Assembly: GCF_000001735.4 (NCBI RefSeq)
Contig: NC_003076.8
Span: 20,835,835-20,899,834, forward strand
Length of the DNA: 64,000 bases
Source of the DNA: Arabidopsis thaliana
Lineage: Eukaryota > Streptophyta > Magnoliopsida > Brassicales > Brassicaceae
Reading direction: 5' to 3'
A program made the translations under genes and the position numbers. Under the pieces are notes generated by a model. The model was not told the origin of the DNA. It saw only the letters and a program-made list of their open reading frames with translations, and ran no database searches. Position 1 is the first letter of the stretch. Each line of letters begins with the position of its first letter. This document shows positions 44,124 to 54,200 of this stretch, piece after piece.

Positions 44124-45986
44124 CTGAAATCCAAAATTAGATCAGCCAAAATTGAATTGAAAAATGGAGAAAAAGAGAGAAAAAGAGATCTTTACGAACC
44201 ATATGAAGGATTGGAGAAACCGAAGAGTGTCCTCAAAGGTTCGTCGTCTTCACTATTTTTTTTTTTTTTGGTTTTATGACATTGAAACTTATTGAAGGGC
44301 TGTTTCTGTGCTTTAAACCAAACTGTTACCTAAACGAGTTTAAGACTAATTTGGTCTTCTTCTCTTCCGTTGACTCACTCAACTCATTAATTAAGCTACG
44401 CATTATGTAAAACGATGACGTTTAACTGCAGAAGAAATTTCCATAATTAAAATTTGTTGACTTCTTTCACATTGTTTTCCGATTTGATAGTTTTAGCCGG
44501 AGTTAAATTGGTATGGTAAGAAATTCAAATTTTAGTTAACCTCATGTCATTATAGGCACGATTCAAAATTATGTGTAAGTACGCCAAACAACTAATTTTC
44601 GTTTTATCCCTCCACGTACAAGTGGTTCTGTTTGCAGATTTGATGGTTTTGGCCAGATTTGAACTGTTAGTGTAAGAAATTCAATTTTAGTTAAATGATT
44701 TAAAGTTTTTTTTTGTATATATATGCCAAAACGATAAAGTTTCATTGAATAAATGGTTGTTAACCCGCTGATCAATGCATTAGAAAATTGGGCTACAAAA
44801 AACGTGAACTTTTTTAATCTGATCCCAACGAAACCGTCAAAGATTATCATTGGTATCCAACTATTGCATGCTCTTCATATCCAACTATTGCATGCTCTTC
44901 AACTCTCATCAACAACTTTTATTTTGACAAATGTTGCGTCATTCTTACAAGTTTGCCATATAAAAGAAGCTTATCTATAGCTGCAAACCAGGAGCCCCGA
45001 AACAATGGTTTCATATGCTGAGCTCTTGTTTGAATCAAATAGACTGTAGAGGAGAAATCGGCAAAAAAAAAAAAAAAAAAAAAGACAAAGTTGTAAATGT
45101 TTAGATCAGGATTTAAGCCAGGATTACAAAGACGCCATCCGGCTTTGTGGTAGACCAACAACACAGCTGTTCTTGGAACCTCAACACAGACCACCAAAAC
45201 AGTTCTTGCTCCCACCAGAGAATACCTTACCTACTGTTTTACTATAATGCTCTAGCCTTGGAGTTTGGAAAAGATTATTAAAAGTTCATAAACAACGGAG
45301 TGAGTTTACCCGATAGAAATCAGATATCATGCAGACCAATCCATTGAAGGCTAGATTCCAAGAAATGCAACAGTTATACCTAACCCCAAAGCCAAAGATT
45401 ATCATTCCTTCTGTGTATACACCTAAGTGCAGACAGAGAACTCGAAGAAAATAAACCAAATTCAAAACCCAAAACTTCTATTAAGGATGACTTCTGTTGT
45501 ATATTTGTTACCTCAAATAGATTCGTGTCATTCGATCCCAACAATCCCGATTCTGTATTCTTTAAATCAGAAAGGTATATCAAACTTGAAATGGTGTACC
45601 AAAAGACAAAAATAAAATAAAATGACGCTATAGCATCTCAAGTATCGAGAAATACAATGAAAATGTAAAAGTTTTACGGGTAATACCTACCTCAACGCTT
45701 TTGACCTCTTAACAAATAACCGATGAAGGAGAATCGGTAAGGTCTCAAACTCTTAGAATAGCTGTGATCCGGTAGAAAGACAAATTTTATCCATAAATTT
45801 TAACAAGGAAGTTCCAAAAGACAACACATGCTTATGAAACCAAAGGGGGTATCACATTGTCTACCTCATTAATTTGCAAAGTTCCTGGCCCCAAGACATA
45901 GTGACAACACCTTATCTCAAACTAGTACTGGCAAATGGTGCTTCTCAACACCCTTTCGTGACCAGACCTTCCACGAGGGTCTCAAA
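44124..45986. other. Intergenic region with small repeats; probable spliced LUC7 3'UTR
   Basis: About 1.9 kb. Two diverged 60-base copies lie at about 44481-44540 and 44637-44697. A perfect 24-bp tandem duplication is at 44854-44901. A 21-base A run lies near 45062. Minus-strand donor-like sites (GAG|GTAGGT near 45690, TAG|GTAAGG near 45230) suggest the LUC7RL 3'UTR is long and spliced. A minus-strand ORF at 44919-45215 has no recognised motif. Confidence 0.4.
44854..44901. repeat. Perfect 24-bp tandem duplication
   Basis: Two identical adjacent copies (44854-44877 and 44878-44901) of a unit containing CCAACTATTGCATGCTCTTC. Each copy holds a GCATGC palindrome. No coding context was recognised. 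Confidence 0.9.
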
Positions 45987-46045
45987 CTAGTATTGGCGAA
46001 TGGGGCTTCTCGACACCCTTCTGTGACCAGACCTTCCATGAGGAG
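45916..46045. repeat. 65-bp tandem duplication across the LUC7RL stop codon
   Basis: 45916-45980 and 45981-46045 are adjacent copies, about 85-90% identical, both starting CTCAAACTAGTA. The right copy encodes the last residues of LUC7RL (HGRSGHRRVSRSPIRQY, stop). The left copy lies just after the stop in the 3'UTR and has drifted so that the same frame would read HGRSG-like residues with changes (ERVLRSTICQY) before a matching TAG. Confidence 0.9.
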
Positions 46046-47743
46046 ATCGTGACCTGCTTCGATCTCGGTCCTCTCTCCCACTCCTCGATCTCCTGTCATA
46101 AGGCTTTCTATAATCTCTACCACGGTCTCTGTGTCTGTCACCATCTCTGTTTCGGTCTCGATCACGATATCTTTCTCTATCACTAGAACCACTCCTCTTA
46201 CTCTCGCTTTCCTTCTCCCTTGGTTTCCTCTTATCATCTGCTTCTTTTCCTCTTACTAGTCTTTCTTCTTCCTTTCCTTTATCTTTAGCAGCCTAGAATA
46301 GAAAAAGTAAACAAAGCATCACTATCCCCATTTTATAAGGAATGACAGCTCAAATGAAACAAGATTCAAGTATTAGTTCTGAGACTTACTTTTTGTTCAG
46401 CAATAAAATCCCGAACCAAGCCATAGCCAACATGTTGCTTTCCAGTGACATGAGACTGTGTTCTTTCTACTGCATCATTAGCCACAAGAAATGAACCACA
46501 AACCTCACACAATGCCATCTTCTTCTCCTGAGCCATCGCGAGTACCTTGTCAGTTGGTCGTTGTAACAACACTGTCTTCTCAGCATTTAGCCCTTCCACC
46601 TACCAGAGTTTCCAAATGATAAGCACTCAATGTACTAAATTTATGATCATAATAAAGGTGACACATAAGGTATAACTGCAAATACGGAGGAATCAAGCAG
46701 AACACCATATTTCAAGTTTCAGTATGATTTGTTAAGACTTCAAAAGTCTTCTTTTTTTAGAGAATGGTAAACAAATAGTACCTTCCTCATTAGCGCTTCA
46801 GCTTCATCCACTTTGCCTTCTTCACCAAGTGCTTCCACTTGTTCCAAAAGGTTCTTAACTTTCTCCTCCAAGACAGACAATTGTTCAGCTTTCTCTGCTG
46901 ATAGAGAAGGTGGTGGAACCGGTTCAACTTCTTGTGCAAGACGTTCTCGCCCACGCCTAACTTTCCTATCAAGATCATTCACCTGTAACCAATTCCAAAT
47001 CTTAGCATAGAGAAGAATCAAACTCTAAAGAAAAGAAAAAAAAAAGTATGACAAGCATTACACACCAACTTCTCGCAAAACTGTGCAAGCTCAGCCTCGA
47101 ATTTAGGCACATAGGAATCATGCCTCGGAGAGTTCTCGAAGCTGAAACAGAAATAATCAAAACTCATTCACATAAATGCGTAAAATGACATTCTAAGGTA
47201 AGCTTAGTCTTAACCTCTACAGATAAACATGCAAGATAGCCACATCTCACACGAATCGATTCAGATTTGTAACAAATCAAATAAATATAATGAAGAAGAT
47301 CTCAATAAAGCGTAACCTTTCTTTCAACTTTGGATCATGAATTCTCGAGCATGCTCCTGAAAACAACAATGAAGCTTAAGATAAGCTAAAGAAAAGCATC
47401 ATACAAAAAAGCAAGTAGATACAAATAGTGAGACTAACCAAGATCGCTTTTCGTGTTAACAAAGAGGTCATGAGGACAAAATCGAACCATATAGAATGCA
47501 CATACTTCTCTATCGTCCCACTTAACCTCCTTGAACCCTCTTCTCTCTTCGTCTGTCAGATTACGAGCTGCAAACAAAATCGAGAGCAATTTCAACAAAA
47601 ATTCGCTCAATTCTTAACATGGATACAGAAATTAAAGCTTTGGAGAGCTCAATTTCGAGGATTAAATTGAAAATAGATTTTGGTACTCGATTATTCTCAC
47701 CTGCGCCCATTAGTTCGTCCAACAGAGCTCGCTGAGCATCCAT
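45987..47743 (-). CDS. LUC7RL: LUC7-like U1 snRNP protein (LUC7RL)
   Basis: Multi-exon minus-strand gene with ATG at 47743 (MDAQRALLDELMGA). The first zinc finger is in CAFYMVRFCPHDLFVNTKSDLGAC (CCCH type, about residues 35-65). A coiled coil follows (AEKAEQLSVLEEKVKNLLEQ). The second zinc finger is C2H2 (ALCEVCGSFLVANDA ... QSHVTGKQH), then an acidic/basic stretch and an RD/RS-rich tail (RERYRDRDRDRDGDRHRDRG, RSRSRSPHGRSG) ending PIRQY at the TAG 45987-45989. LUC7 proteins belong to the U1 snRNP and help select 5' splice sites. Of the three Arabidopsis members this matches the LUC7RL type (yeast Luc7/human LUC7L3-like). The stop lies inside a 65-bp tandem duplication, so the C-terminal peptide was once duplicated. 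Confidence 0.92.
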
Positions 47744-48248
47744 GGCGGGCTAAGAAGAAATTGAAACTTAATCCAGAGAGAGATAAAGGAAATTGCAGAA
47801 TCAAATTGAAGAAATTTTGAAGAGGATGACGAACAAAAGTGGAGAAGTGATGATTAGGGTTTCGTTCGCCACGACGAATAAAAGGCGTTCGTCTATGGTA
47901 AAACTCTATGATTGCAAAATAAAAAATAAAAAACTCTATTCCCTATATAAATAATGAATAATCATATCAAGAAAAAGTTGAACTAAAAAATAATATCACG
48001 AAAAAACAAAACACTTAACGAAATTAAATTTTTAATAAATTCATAGACATAAGGCAATCACAAATTTAAGTTTTATTATTTTAGAAAACAAAAATATTGA
48101 TTTATATTATAGGGGAAAGAAAAATATTGATCGCTAAATACATTTATTTCAGATATTAGAACAGATACTAGCGAATAAAAATCAGAAACGGGCAATCCGA
48201 ATAGTAAAAAACACAACCTGAATTATTTTTGATACCTATTGATTTGAA

Positions 48249-48396
48249 TGGTGGCTGCGTTTTGCGGTGCAGGAGAAGTGCGGTGCGGTTCAAATAGTAA
48301 CGAAAATATATAGATACATATGTATATGTAAAGATTTTGATACTGTTACAGCACTGTTGCGGTACGGTTTTGGGTGCGGTCTATGTCACCATTAAT
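48249..48396. mobile_element. Possible small non-autonomous hAT-like element
   Basis: Left AATGGTGGCTGCG and right TCACCATT can pair over a short AATGGTG terminus, with GCGGTGCGGTT words just inside the left and GTTGCGGTACGGTT/GGGTGCGGTC inside the right. GC-rich GCGGTGCGG subterminal repeats are seen in Arabidopsis hAT-derived short elements. I could not find a clean 8-bp target duplication, so the boundaries are approximate. Confidence 0.3.
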
Positions 48397-49227
48397 GGCC
48401 ATAACGAAATGAAAATTTCATGTTACGAGATGGAATTCAGATTGGGTTAAATTCATGTAGCCATAAAAAAATTGTATGAAAATGTAGCCAAATTTACTTT
48501 TCAAGTATTCATTAATTAAGCTAAGAGTTGACTTTGGCAAAATAAATAAATATTCACTAATTTGACTGAAGATAGGTTACAAAATGAATTCATAAAACAT
48601 TTGTAGTTAAATTCACTTTTCAAACTATCACTAATTTGGATAAAGGTTGATTTTGAAACGCGTAAAAGTTAACTAGTTTGGCTAAGAATTGACTTCGGAA
48701 TAAAAGTTCACGAAATTCAACCCGTCTTAAAATGGACATGCCTACTAATCATCACCCGTCCTAAACTTTGTGACTATGGGAACGTTTTGTTTTGAATATT
48801 ATAGTGACTTCAAAACGTTTCCATAATCGTATAGACTTTACTAGCTAGAAAAATCAATGTACTAAAGACTTGTCAAACAAACCCTTAATTAAATGTACTA
48901 AAGACGTACGGAGAATGCTCTGTTCCAATGACTTAGTATTTGTGTGAAAACAAGAACAAGATACATTACTCGTTTTAACTCTTATTTCACATATGTATAC
49001 GTGATCACCTTGCATTCCCTAAAACAAAGAGCCATTGGAACGTCTCTAAACCTTTAGCAAGGACCAATGAGTATTTTGATGTGTTCTTTACATAGTTGCA
49101 TACACCAAAAGAGAACATGCATTCCAAATAAAAATGATATTAGCAAAAAAAAAAAAAACATGTTTAAGCTTTGTGACACATAAATCATACAGTAGCAGCA
49201 AGAACCTTGACGCGATAACATAGTGAA

Positions 49228-49272
49228 TCCTTGTTCTTCATCATGCGCGAGTTGTTTAACGAAGCCTTGTTC
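49228..49272. repeat. Inverted copy of the MBOAT 45-bp coding repeat
   Basis: The reverse complement of these 45 bases matches 49675-49719 at 43 of 45 positions (differences at the sixth base and inside AACTCGCGC versus AACTTGCGC). It lies about 360 bases past the MBOAT stop codon in the direction of MBOAT transcription, so a long transcript would contain both arms. Confidence 0.9.
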
Positions 49273-49584
49273 ATCTCTGGTTTTTTAACACATCCCTAGA
49301 TTGTAAGAAGGGCTTATTATCTTTGCTTTTCATATTGTAGAAGGTGAGATGCTTACCTTTACCGTTGAATTCAGCTGAATTCAAAGGCCATTTAGAGCCT
49401 TCGTTTTGCATCTCACACAAAATAAGAAATCTTTTTACCATTCAAGGGTAAACTAGTAAACTTATATAAATAAATAAATCACATTGAAATTGTAAAGCCA
49501 CAATTGTTTTGAAACAGAGAGAGATGATATGATAATCGAGCTACAGAAACACTTAAATCCCTTATATCATGATTTAGCAATTTA

Positions 49585-50892
49585 TCACCAGCCAAAAGTA
49601 AACAACTTGAGCTTGACGAAACCAATGAAGAACATGGCTTCGTTAAACAACTTGCGTATGACGAAACCAATGAAGAACATGGCTTCGTTAAACAACTTGC
49701 GCATGATGAAGAACAAGGAGGATTCGTTAAACAACTTGAGCTTGACGAAACCAATGAAAAACAAGGCTCCGTTAAACAACTTGCGCATGACGAAACCAGT
49801 GAAGAACAAGGCTTCGTTAAAAAACTTACGCATGAAGAACAAGGATTCGTTAAACAAGTTGCGCACGAAACCAATGAAGAGCAAGGCTTCGTTAGCGAAT
49901 CTCTGAATCTTGCCGGTCCTGACAAGAGGAGGGAAAAACAACCAACCAGCAGTCACAACGACAAACCCCATAACCATCACTTGTAATATCAAACACGGGC
50001 AAAATTCAAACCCTATCCACCGCGCAATCTTCTTCTTTAACCTGGCGTCGTACGCCACAATGCAAACCCCATGTAACACGAAGAACAGAGTAACCTCTCC
50101 AGTAGGCCGCTCACGAGTTATATAGAAGAAGAGAAACTCGTGAAGTGCACCGGAGACAAGGAATGTGACAAAAACTCCCAAGTACAGAGCATTCTCGGAG
50201 TTCATTTTCCCTTCAGTGATTCGCCGCATCCTAGCGTAGACGTCTGGCAGGAGGATCGTCGGGAGCATGAGTGTCCACCAGTGACCCCAGAAGTCTCGAA
50301 GAGAATAGGCCAAGTATGGTTCATTCAGCTGTGGCTCGAGTTCGCAATCAAGAGCTATAGAGAAGAAAGCGTTGAAGAGCTTTAAGAGAATCTCAAGTAC
50401 CAAGTATAGATGGAGTGGATAGAGAACAAATAGCACAATGGGATATATATGTTGTATGTGATTATACATATGTAACACTACACTCAAGATTACAACTTTA
50501 GTCACGAATTGGTTACTAAACAAAACTTCAATGGGGTATTCCCATTGGAAGAAATAGTCTCGGCGCTTAGGGTTTTGTTGAAGCTTGATGGGGAAGCAAG
50601 CGAAGCAGATGAATCGGGTGAGATTTGAGGGAAGTGGAAAAAGTGGGCCTTGATTGAAGGAGAAGAGTATGAGTTTGAAATTGGCGAGCCATGAGATGAA
50701 AAGCGCTGTGTAACCAGAGAGGTGAACAGAGGCGAAAAACAGAGGAAGAACACGAAACAGAGCACAAATTGGAAGAACAGAGAGAAATCTAAAGATACCA
50801 GGTTTGATTCTGGTTGGTACGTAGTAACAGTAAGATATGGAGATTATTACAGAAACCGAAACCTTGATCAAGTTCTTGAGTTCTTCCTCCAT
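49585..50892 (-). CDS. MBOAT wax-ester-synthase-like acyltransferase with C-terminal repeat tail
   Basis: Single-exon gene of 435 residues, ATG at 50892. The body has 7-9 hydrophobic membrane segments and the wax synthase landmarks: [31 protein letters not shown] and the MBOAT catalytic His in [11 protein letters not shown] (about residue 250). Plant wax-ester synthases esterify fatty acyl-CoA to fatty alcohols in the ER and are about 340-350 residues. Here the usual end ([14 protein letters not shown]) is followed by about 100 extra residues made of seven near-copies of a hydrophobic 15-mer ([19 protein letters not shown]). The repeats at DNA level are 45, 39 or 33 bases, so frame is kept. 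Whether the tail forms extra membrane helices is unknown. No intron or frameshift was seen. Confidence 0.9.
49597..49905. repeat. In-frame 45-bp tandem repeats (coding)
   Basis: The word AAACAACTTG (or a close variant) starts at 49600, 49645, 49690, 49729, 49774, 49819 and 49852: spacings 45, 45, 39, 45, 45, 33, all multiples of three. Units contain ACGAAACCAATGAAGAACA and GGCTTCGTT. They encode the C-terminal tail of the MBOAT protein on the minus strand. The opposite strand is also open but is only a mirror. Confidence 0.95.
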
Positions 50893-51209
50893 CTATCCGA
50901 TCTTTTTTTTTTTTTGTCTTTCTTGACTTTGTTATGACAGCTACACATTGTTAGAAGATTCGGACCAAGGAACCAGTTTTGCCTCTTCCTCTCACGCAAT
51001 GTTAGTGGAAGCCATTTCATCTATGATTTGGTCTTAACTAAAACGGCTTGTCACGAGTACATTTTATTTAAGTAACAAACTATTTTCTAAACAATAAAAA
51101 ACACGAAAAAACTACGTAACTAAAACATTAGACAATGCTGTAATACAATATGACAATGGACGAGCCGATTTGTTAGCAAAGTCTTATCGAAACCCAAGTA
51201 GATTTGAGA
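50893..51209. other. Short intergenic region
   Basis: MBOAT leader and promoter, then the 3'UTR of COG7 (both minus strand). T run near 50905-50917. No other feature seen. Confidence 0.5.
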
Positions 51210-54200
51210 CTAATCGAAACTGATACGACGCATCTTACAAACAAGATTAGCTGTAGGGCAGTCGAGTTCATTACCAGCTTCTGATTTCATCACATCTTTG
51301 AGCTCACCTCTCGGTGTAGCCAAACACGTCTGAAAAGTTGCAAGAACTGGCGGAATTGGCATGGACAGAGCCGAAAGCACATTGCTCAAGTACTCAATAT
51401 CTACAGAGAGTTGTTGTGCTCCTCGGTCTGAAATGTATTGGATTCCTCTCAATTGGTCCATGTACAGAGCGGTTGCTCCTTCTGCTACCTGTTGTTTTAT
51501 TAAAAAAAAAACACTTAGTGGTTAAGGTCTTAGCTTATTGCGATTCGGTTTGACAAAAGCTTAAATTAGACTTACCTTGAACATCCATTCGGTTGCAAAG
51601 AATTGTGCATCCTCGTTGTTTGAATCGCCGTTGGTTGAGATGCCTTCAGCTAGAGGCTCAAGCTGCTGCGGCAAAGTAAGGAGATATTCTCCAACACTTG
51701 TAACATAAGACTGCGGGTATGAGCTGAAATTTGGTAGAGGAAAAGCAGTTTGTTCCTCGACGGAAGACCAGATTGGTAGGCGAGATACTTCCCCTAGACG
51801 TTGCCTGACTTTTGATATAAGGACGTCATAGACAAGTTCATTGACTGTGTCGGCAAATGCAGCAACTCTCTGAGACGCCAAAGGCAGTGCGTGGAATCGT
51901 GGATCTTTGGACTGCAAAAAATCAAAGGGAAAAGGGAATCGATACGCATGAAATATCAAATAGTTAATTCAGAAACTTTGTAAATCAAGCCTACAGGTTT
52001 TCACTACCTGCTCCAATAGGTTTAATAGTTTGTGAGCCTTCTCCGGAACATCAACCAACCGAATAGCTGCCACATCCATGGAAGCTCGTCCAGCCATAGA
52101 CAAATCTCCAGCAGTTTGTTCACTTTTCAAATGTGATAGGTTGTGATCCAAATTTGTGCCAAATAATGAAATAGACAAGCTGGAGTTTAGTCTAGCTAGA
52201 GTTGCTCTCAAAGAGGCTTCAAAGACAGAAGACCTGCTCGTGAGACAATCAGCTACAGTAAGAATTTGAAGTGCTCCTTGAACAATGGACCATTCCTCAT
52301 TTGAAGTCAAATCCATCTTGCGAGAGCTCTCCCTTTTCTCTGCACTTGCATCTTTCTTTGAGCCAACTCCATCACCTGTACCATCCACTCCACACACAAC
52401 TCTCAAAGATTTGAGTGTTTCTTGAAGCATAGAGATATACTGCAACATTATGTCATCTAATGCAAGTATCAGCTCGTCTGCCTCTGACCCTCCAGTAAAG
52501 CCAATACACCTTTCAACTGCAGCTTCAAGAAGAACAACAACTTGGGGAATAGACTCTTCCATCCTACGCACTGTTTCACTGAGTTCAATTCCTTGAGCCC
52601 CAACACCACGAGTAACAGCCCCTCTCAGATCCACCACTGCAATCTCAGAGGATAAAATAGCACGTTCCATCTTCCCATACCTAAAGCATGATCAAACCTT
52701 ATGTCACAAACAGCCTTGAAGAACCACGACCCAAAAAAGTTTCATCAAAAAAATGGGACAATCCATAAATACTAGAAATGGATACAAGACATGGGGGAAG
52801 AGAAGTACACAACATGAAAACTTACTTTTGCTTAAACGATTCAAAGGGTGAGTACACGGCCTTCAGCGTATCTATTAAGATCCTAAGTTCAGATTCCGCA
52901 AACAGGTGCTGAATATTTCTTGCAAAGGAACCAGTTACGTTGTGCAGTTCAATCAGAGCCTCAAGATGCTTGGTCTGAATATTAATACCCTTGGGCAAGT
53001 CTCCAGATAATAGATCCATCACACCTGTTCAAGGAAAACATCAGAATTGTCAGTATTCTCCTAAATACACAAAATACAGATATAAGTCAATTGAAGATAA
53101 TCGTGCATTGTCTGGAAAATTTCCAGTGACTAAATGAAAAATGTAACAAATAAGTTGTTGTTCAAACTTCCTGCAAGTCTCTCTTGCATATTGACAGATT
53201 CATGACATCGGCCACTATGCACAAAAATTACAAACTTAACAAGAACAGCCAAAAACTTTAGCTCATGTAAAGGCAGAAAAAAGTGATACTCTTCTTACAT
53301 CTATCTACCCAAACATGAGGATGGTAGAGTAGAACCACTAAAGAAGCAACGCAATCCCAATTCAGCTGGGTAAAAAGACTAGACTAAGAAGGAAACCTAA
53401 TAATCAAACTGTACTGACATCATATCTAACCTTTGGCGAGTGCTTTTGTTTCAGGAACAGCATCTCCAGTTGCAAGGTTAAGACGAGAAACAAAACTAGC
53501 CCCCAGTACTCCCATGGTCTCAACCAACAGCTTTGGGACGAGAGTCATGTAGTCATCAGGGAAGGCAACCATACACCTAAACAATCATGAAAGCAAAAAC
53601 GTACAACAGTGATTGATACTTAAAGCTGCAATCACCTAAAGATCTGACATACTGTCACTGGAAGGGCCCGGAAAATATATACAGTTTACTGTAAATAAAA
53701 GTAAAACATTTACCATTTCCACTCTTGCTCAAGATAGAGTAGCAACTCGTCGTAAAAGCTTGTCAGCCAACTGGCAAATGATGTCTGAGATGATGTCGAC
53801 TGAAACTCATCGCCGCTAGACAACCTTTGACTTTCACTTCTCTCATTGGCAAGCTTGTTTGCCCTTTGCTTTGTGTCAAAATCTTCCCAGAGTTGTTTAA
53901 TCGGCTTTAGACGGACTTTTGAATATTGCAACTCCAGAGACTTGAATCTCCCAATCCGGATGAGAATTACTCGCAAATCTTGGGCGACATCAACCTGCCA
54001 AATTTGGGGAAAGGCTTTTCAGTCCAATAATGGCAACAGAGACATTACAACCTAAAGTAGTTGGGTTCTCTAGATATACAGGTTCCAACCTTGTGATATG
54101 TTAATGCATCAGTAAGACGTGGCTGCACCATCGCCTCCAGCCTATCTTCCAATACCTCTAGTTGCTTTCTCACATTAGCAAATTCTGCAACCTGTTGACA

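Follow-up and report, generated by a model that had tools for sequence, protein, structure and literature searches.

Inverted copies of a gene's own sequence that adjoin the gene are known from PAI4-PAI1 and VIM4-VIM2 in Arabidopsis thaliana Cvi; both repeats are reported to yield siRNAs, and for VIM4-VIM2 a stem-loop RNA is described that arises from read-through transcription (PMC13213937). Endogenous inverted repeats in general are regarded as substrates of DCL2, DCL3, and DCL4 (PMC12825306). A review counts 885 inverted repeats in Col-0, of which 634 lie within 3 kb of a gene (Arce et al. 2023, via PMC12595863); about 486 of these 634 make 24-nt siRNAs, and about 68% of the Col-0 inverted repeats are likely transposon-derived. 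In the Allen-model MIRNA genes (MIR161, MIR163, and others), the founder is likewise an inverted duplication of coding sequence, and evidence of such an origin is given for 16 Arabidopsis MIRNA loci (PMC1790633). In another count, 11 of 142 A. thaliana miRNA genes fall into the inverted-duplication class (PMC3237417). A published MIRNA criterion is that the 20-24-nt reads are precise, at least 75% of them coming from one duplex, and a plant MIRNA foldback longer than 300 nt is flagged with a warning without being failed (PMC12594335).

Here I describe a locus in a 64-kb window of A. thaliana chromosome 5 (NC_003076.8, positions 20,835,835 to 20,899,834), where an inverted copy of a coding repeat lies downstream of the gene that carries the repeat. 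The gene is an intronless ORF of 435 amino acids on the minus strand (49585-50892 in the list of open reading frames). A sequence-only reading of the window had called it an MBOAT acyltransferase gene, and this was borne out by the sole Pfam domain of the 435-aa protein, MBOAT_2 (PF13813; residues 186-272, E = 8.3e-16). The gene matches the MBOAT wax synthase At5g51420 in its 435-aa length and in the gene order around At5g51420, which I take to be that of the window gene. At5g51420 is the only protein of 435 residues among the 11 wax-synthase rows with a printed length in Table 1 of PMC9319179, where its expression maximum is 66.7 FPKM, in an inflorescence-meristem library. Since it is expressed in at least one library, At5g51420 is not constitutively off. 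The word "repeat" is absent from the main text of that paper, the only one of 5.39 million in which a full-text literature search found AT5G51420. The features of the gene end are as follows.

49858-49902, minus strand: unit 1 of the coding repeat array, 45 bp, diverged; in the alignment, the counterpart of the single unit of relatives
49825-49857, minus strand: unit 2, 33 bp, A-type, in the first higher-order copy (HOR1)
49780-49824, minus strand: unit 3, 45 bp, B-type, in HOR1
49735-49779, minus strand: unit 4, 45 bp, C-type, in HOR1
49696-49734, minus strand: unit 5, 39 bp, A-type, in the second higher-order copy (HOR2); a predicted partner of the arm
49651-49695, minus strand: unit 6, 45 bp, B-type, in HOR2; a predicted partner of the arm
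49606-49650, minus strand: unit 7, 45 bp, C-type, in HOR2
49284-49584, minus strand: spacer, that is, the 3′ flank from the stop codon to the arm
49225-49283, plus strand: inverted copy (the arm), which reads in frame on the plus strand as ESLFFIMRELFNEALFISGF

Coding minisatellites are in-frame tandem repeats at protein ends. The array is of this kind: seven in-frame tandem units of 45/33/45/45/39/45/45 bp, all multiples of three, occupy a single locus (49606-49902, minus strand) and encode residues 331-429 as units of 15, 11, 15, 15, 13, 15, and 15 amino acids. Seven coding repeats of 45, 39, and 33 bp had already been noticed by the sequence-only reading; their number and lengths stand, and the span was given there as 49597-49905. 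Units 2-3-4 (HOR1) and units 5-6-7 (HOR2) make up a higher-order period of 129 bp, and the first 37 nucleotides of units 6 and 7 are identical. Unlike ordinary coding minisatellites, this one has an inverted piece beside the array as an added element. Selection on the repeated peptide was considered and rejected; summed over the six pairs that units 3, 4, 6, and 7 form, there are 4.0 synonymous differences per 51 sites against 23 non-synonymous differences per 219 sites, and purifying selection is not indicated. Further open frames cross the array within 49585-49925: a 148-aa ORF on the minus strand, and on the plus strand ORFs of 125 aa and 137 aa (the latter from stop to stop). This is expected, because the repeat unit is free of stop codons. 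The hydrophobic seven-unit tail (49606-49902) makes the protein about 90-100 amino acids longer than most relatives. In the AlphaFold2 prediction for the 435-aa protein (mean pLDDT 70.0, pTM 0.53; five models, 55-70), the tail forms parts of two putative long helices, residues 328-384 and 390-432, with low to moderate confidence.

Is this tail found in other proteins? Among the 260 protein relatives found, 120 were listed, and 43 of those listed were aligned with the window protein (44 proteins in total). In this alignment, the seven-unit tail (105 residues from the residue-331 column) is present only in the window protein and in A. suecica P0001; the other 42 proteins have tails of 13-49 residues and no unit array. 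Camelina sativa P0002, which is 79% identical, has one unit. A protein search with the tail alone, from 1359 candidates, gave A. suecica P0001 as the sole match. Among the 120 of 260 relatives listed, the proteins named as those of A. lyrata or A. halleri are at most 63% identical, and thus the ortholog of these species may be missing, unannotated, or unlisted. In the A. thaliana genome, there are 12 further matches to the protein, 11 of which span at least 336 of the 435 residues and one of which spans 52.

The inverted copy occupies nucleotides 302-360 after the stop codon. Over 49228-49283 it agrees with the reverse complement of 49664-49719 in 51 of 56 bases (91%), and against 49793-49848, with a 3-nt gap, the arm aligns over 59 columns at 86% and reaches 49225. 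Two earlier observations hold: 49228-49272 matches the reverse complement of 49675-49719 at 43 of 45 bases, and the copy sits about 360 bases past the stop codon. When 45-mers of the 1-kb 3′ flank are set against the array without gaps, the best match has 43 identities, compared with a mean of 25.3 and a maximum of 28 in 200 dinucleotide shuffles of the flank. The arm keeps a 21-bp perfect run and an uninterrupted coding frame on the plus strand. In a scan for inverted repeats (at least 40 nt, 85%, within 1 kb), the arm-array pair was the only one in the window and appeared as three rows, each pairing the arm with different units. Two 10-kb stretches of the paralogue cluster were scanned in the same way; one held no pair, and the other held a single AT-rich one (47 nt, 85%), which is situated between wax-synthase paralogues at L026:3421-3830.

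A genome search with 49160-49310 (E up to 10) gave seven rows, all at this locus. With 49200-49910 as the query there was a single hit at another place, a paralogue coding unit at C5:22442381 that matches the array end and not the arm. No copy of the spacer was found elsewhere in the genome; this search missed weak paralogue similarity, so that distant copies could escape it. A transposon or MITE origin is disfavoured, since the arm and the spacer match only this locus in the genome (E up to 10, best candidates scored); the multiple genomic copies typical of a MITE were found for neither. A paralogue near C5:22.444 Mb has a similar 3′ end: over 126 columns, which take in the gene end and the first 61 or so nucleotides of the 3′ flank (49524-49584), identity is about 74%, and the detected similarity ends at 49524. 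The spacer itself has a small predicted hairpin at 49330-49425. On the minus strand its z score is -3.90, a value that none of 200 shuffles reached; on the plus strand it is -3.19, reached by 2 of 200, and folding within 49300-49440 gives just -2.20. This hairpin holds a 20-nt palindrome, TTGAATTCAGCTGAATTCAA, of which no other genomic copy was found.

When was the arm copied? The arm, HOR1, and HOR2 were compared in a hand-made three-way codon alignment. Private substitutions in the 56 shared columns number three in the arm and two in each of HOR1 and HOR2. HOR1 is without an ATC and HOR2 carries an additional TCC; the arm shares neither of these 3-nt changes and stands, in sequence, between the two copies. 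Because of the absence of both indels and its three private substitutions, the arm was probably copied before the present differences between HOR1 and HOR2. This comparison rejects the arm as a literal copy of 49675-49719, and the proposal of a young duplication of that present unit found no support, as the arm is without the changes private to either coding copy. In the simplest history, the arm would have been copied around the time of the 129-bp higher-order duplication. The copying may have come shortly before or after it, as three sequences cannot say which two are sisters, and gene conversion could distort this history. At a substitution rate of 7e-9 per site and year, 3 of 56 corresponds to a rough age of 7.7 million years (95% interval 1.6-22), which does not favour a very young origin. 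The decay of the arm has been about as slow as that of the coding copies.

Does the transcript reach the arm? Among 12 poly(A) motif patterns on the minus strand of 49001-49600, only GATAAA (at 49586, over the stop codon) and TGTAA (at 49092) were found; the scan is uninformative, because plant poly(A) signals are loose. A 3′ UTR of at least 357 nt is needed to include the arm. According to PMC4568572, Arabidopsis 3′ UTRs have a median of 169 nt (mean 183 nt) before they are extended and of 188 nt (mean 217 nt) afterwards; in genes with three poly(A) clusters, the third corresponds to 305 nt on average. Since the published median is 188 nt against the 357 nt needed, the main mRNA may end before the arm. 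Judging from genome averages and not from the gene itself, most At5g51420 mRNAs probably do so, and inclusion of the arm in distal isoforms is possible but would not be the default expectation.

RNA reaching 49228 is predicted to form the hairpin that had been suggested from the sequence, with a stem not of about 45 bp but of 52 pairs over 56 positions (49228-49283 with 49664-49719; sequence-perfect runs of 21, 17, and 5, the longest joining 49228-49248 to 49699-49719). The RNA from 49920 to 49200 has a minimum free energy of -222.8 kcal/mol (z = -8.07), and 0 of 20 shuffles were as good. When the arm was swapped for 20 shuffled arms, the mean was -181.7 kcal/mol (sd 2.6, best -185.6), so that the real arm is better than this mean by about 41 kcal/mol. 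For a longer RNA of 1693 nt, which begins at the start codon and ends at 49200, the mean probability of arm-array pairing is 0.92, and units 5 and 6 account for nearly all of it. All of these predictions assume naked RNA at equilibrium. The claim that the arm can pair with any repeat unit was too broad, because the diverged unit 1 pairs less well with it (-41.2 kcal/mol, where six other tested stretches range from -58.5 to -83.9). The foldback measures 492 nt (49719 to 49228), with 380 nt between the arms; unit 7, the stop codon, and all of the spacer lie in the loop that the predicted stem would close. The self-complementary arms expected of an siRNA-producing inverted repeat lie on one potential transcript.

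Does the gene silence itself? Long 3′-UTR isoforms would fold, and siRNAs made by DCL2/3/4 would hit the coding units both in cis and in trans; DNA methylation of the gene end might accompany this, and the PAI and VIM inverted repeats would be the precedent. The stem, its gain over shuffled arms, and its pairing probability are consistent with this, as are the siRNAs of gene-near Col-0 repeats and of the Cvi pairs. Nevertheless, self-silencing is rather unlikely. At 56 nt the stem is short, its pairing is imperfect, its arms are widely spaced, and a 3′ UTR well above the published median would be needed for it; the Cvi repeats are whole genes with near-perfect stems and siRNA evidence (PMC13213937), whereas the pairing here covers 56 nt at 91%, is known from its sequence only, and has a coding minisatellite as one arm. 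Like the gene-near Col-0 repeats, the arm lies within 3 kb of a gene, but it shows no sign of a transposon, unlike the majority of repeats in that set, and matches only this locus. In trans, the arm 21-mers were compared with 11 of the 12 other loci (L012-L022; the 52-residue fragment L023 was left out). In 0 of the 11 was there a match within 3 mismatches; the best match has 5 mismatches in four loci, and the other seven have none up to 5. This speaks against trans targeting of the paralogues, and thus, among the tested wax-synthase genes, only the parent could be hit. An elaboration would be a copy-number rheostat, in which a minisatellite carries its own antisense arm and siRNAs from read-through transcripts damp an expanding gene. 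If so, every added unit would be a further siRNA target and a possible stem partner. The slow decay of the arm allows such upkeep without demonstrating it, and I consider the rheostat improbable. A Dicer-independent role of the structure at the 3′ end, where it would influence translation, the choice of poly(A) site, or the retention of long isoforms in the nucleus, might be read from the predicted enclosure of the stop codon and the spacer; most transcripts may end without the arm, and such a role is very doubtful.

The inverted duplication had also been seen as raw material for a miRNA gene. The precedents for such an origin from coding sequence speak for a proto-MIRNA gene, and the 56-nt stem, with 5 mismatches in all, stays within the MIRNA duplex limit of 5 mismatches and no large bulge. 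This is weak evidence, because any long inverted repeat would do the same. On the other hand, the foldback of 492 nt exceeds the plant guide value of about 300 nt, its loop is branched, and, unlike in Allen-model MIRNA genes, the parent CDS itself is still one arm of a structure that is known at the sequence level. An Rfam scan of 47000-52000 (E up to 5) gave five weak rows, none at the gathering score and none inside 49228-49905, which rules against a known RNA family; a new miRNA locus needs no family match. With the long foldback, the distance between the arms, the Rfam result, and the lack of sufficient complementarity in the 11 paralogous loci, the miRNA proposal is weakened, and a proto-MIRNA gene is very unlikely. 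It was also considered whether the gene end once had a longer inverted duplicate, arranged tail to tail, of which everything but the arm was deleted or eroded. The retained coding frame on the plus strand would fit such a remnant, but a tblastn search of 45000-49584 with the whole protein gave E < 1 only at the arm (further rows, E 1.2 overlapping the arm and E 3.4 elsewhere). This disfavours a gene remnant, which is an improbable source.

The inverted copy is probably a by-product of the unstable coding repeat. In the fuller account, which I hold to be reasonably likely though far from assured, a coding minisatellite has left a drifted inverted copy, the arm lies mostly beyond the mRNA ends, and what is seen can be explained without a dedicated function. 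A 15-aa coding segment at the end of a wax synthase would have grown into the seven-unit coding minisatellite. Around the 129-bp higher-order duplication, an A-B stretch of about 59 bp was copied in inverted orientation to a place about 300 bp past the stop codon; the copy is plain from the sequence, and its route was perhaps template switching in replication or repair. The arm does not resemble a transposable element and would have been drifting since then, and most mRNAs would stop before it. When transcription reads through at least 357 nt past the stop codon, the arm and units 5-6 would form a stem of about 52 pairs with a 380-nt loop, which may be diced at a low level by DCL2/3/4-type activity. 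Against the by-product reading, the 21-bp run, the frame, and the slow decay of the arm could be explained by weak constraint; the strong predicted fold (z = -8.07) and the commonness of siRNAs at gene-near Col-0 inverted repeats may also count against it.

If transcription stops short of the arm, the locus would cleanly illustrate how an inverted copy can come from an unstable repeat array and be left drifting. If it is transcribed through, one arm of a silencing hairpin would still be working coding sequence, at a stage before a miRNA or siRNA gene separates from its founder.
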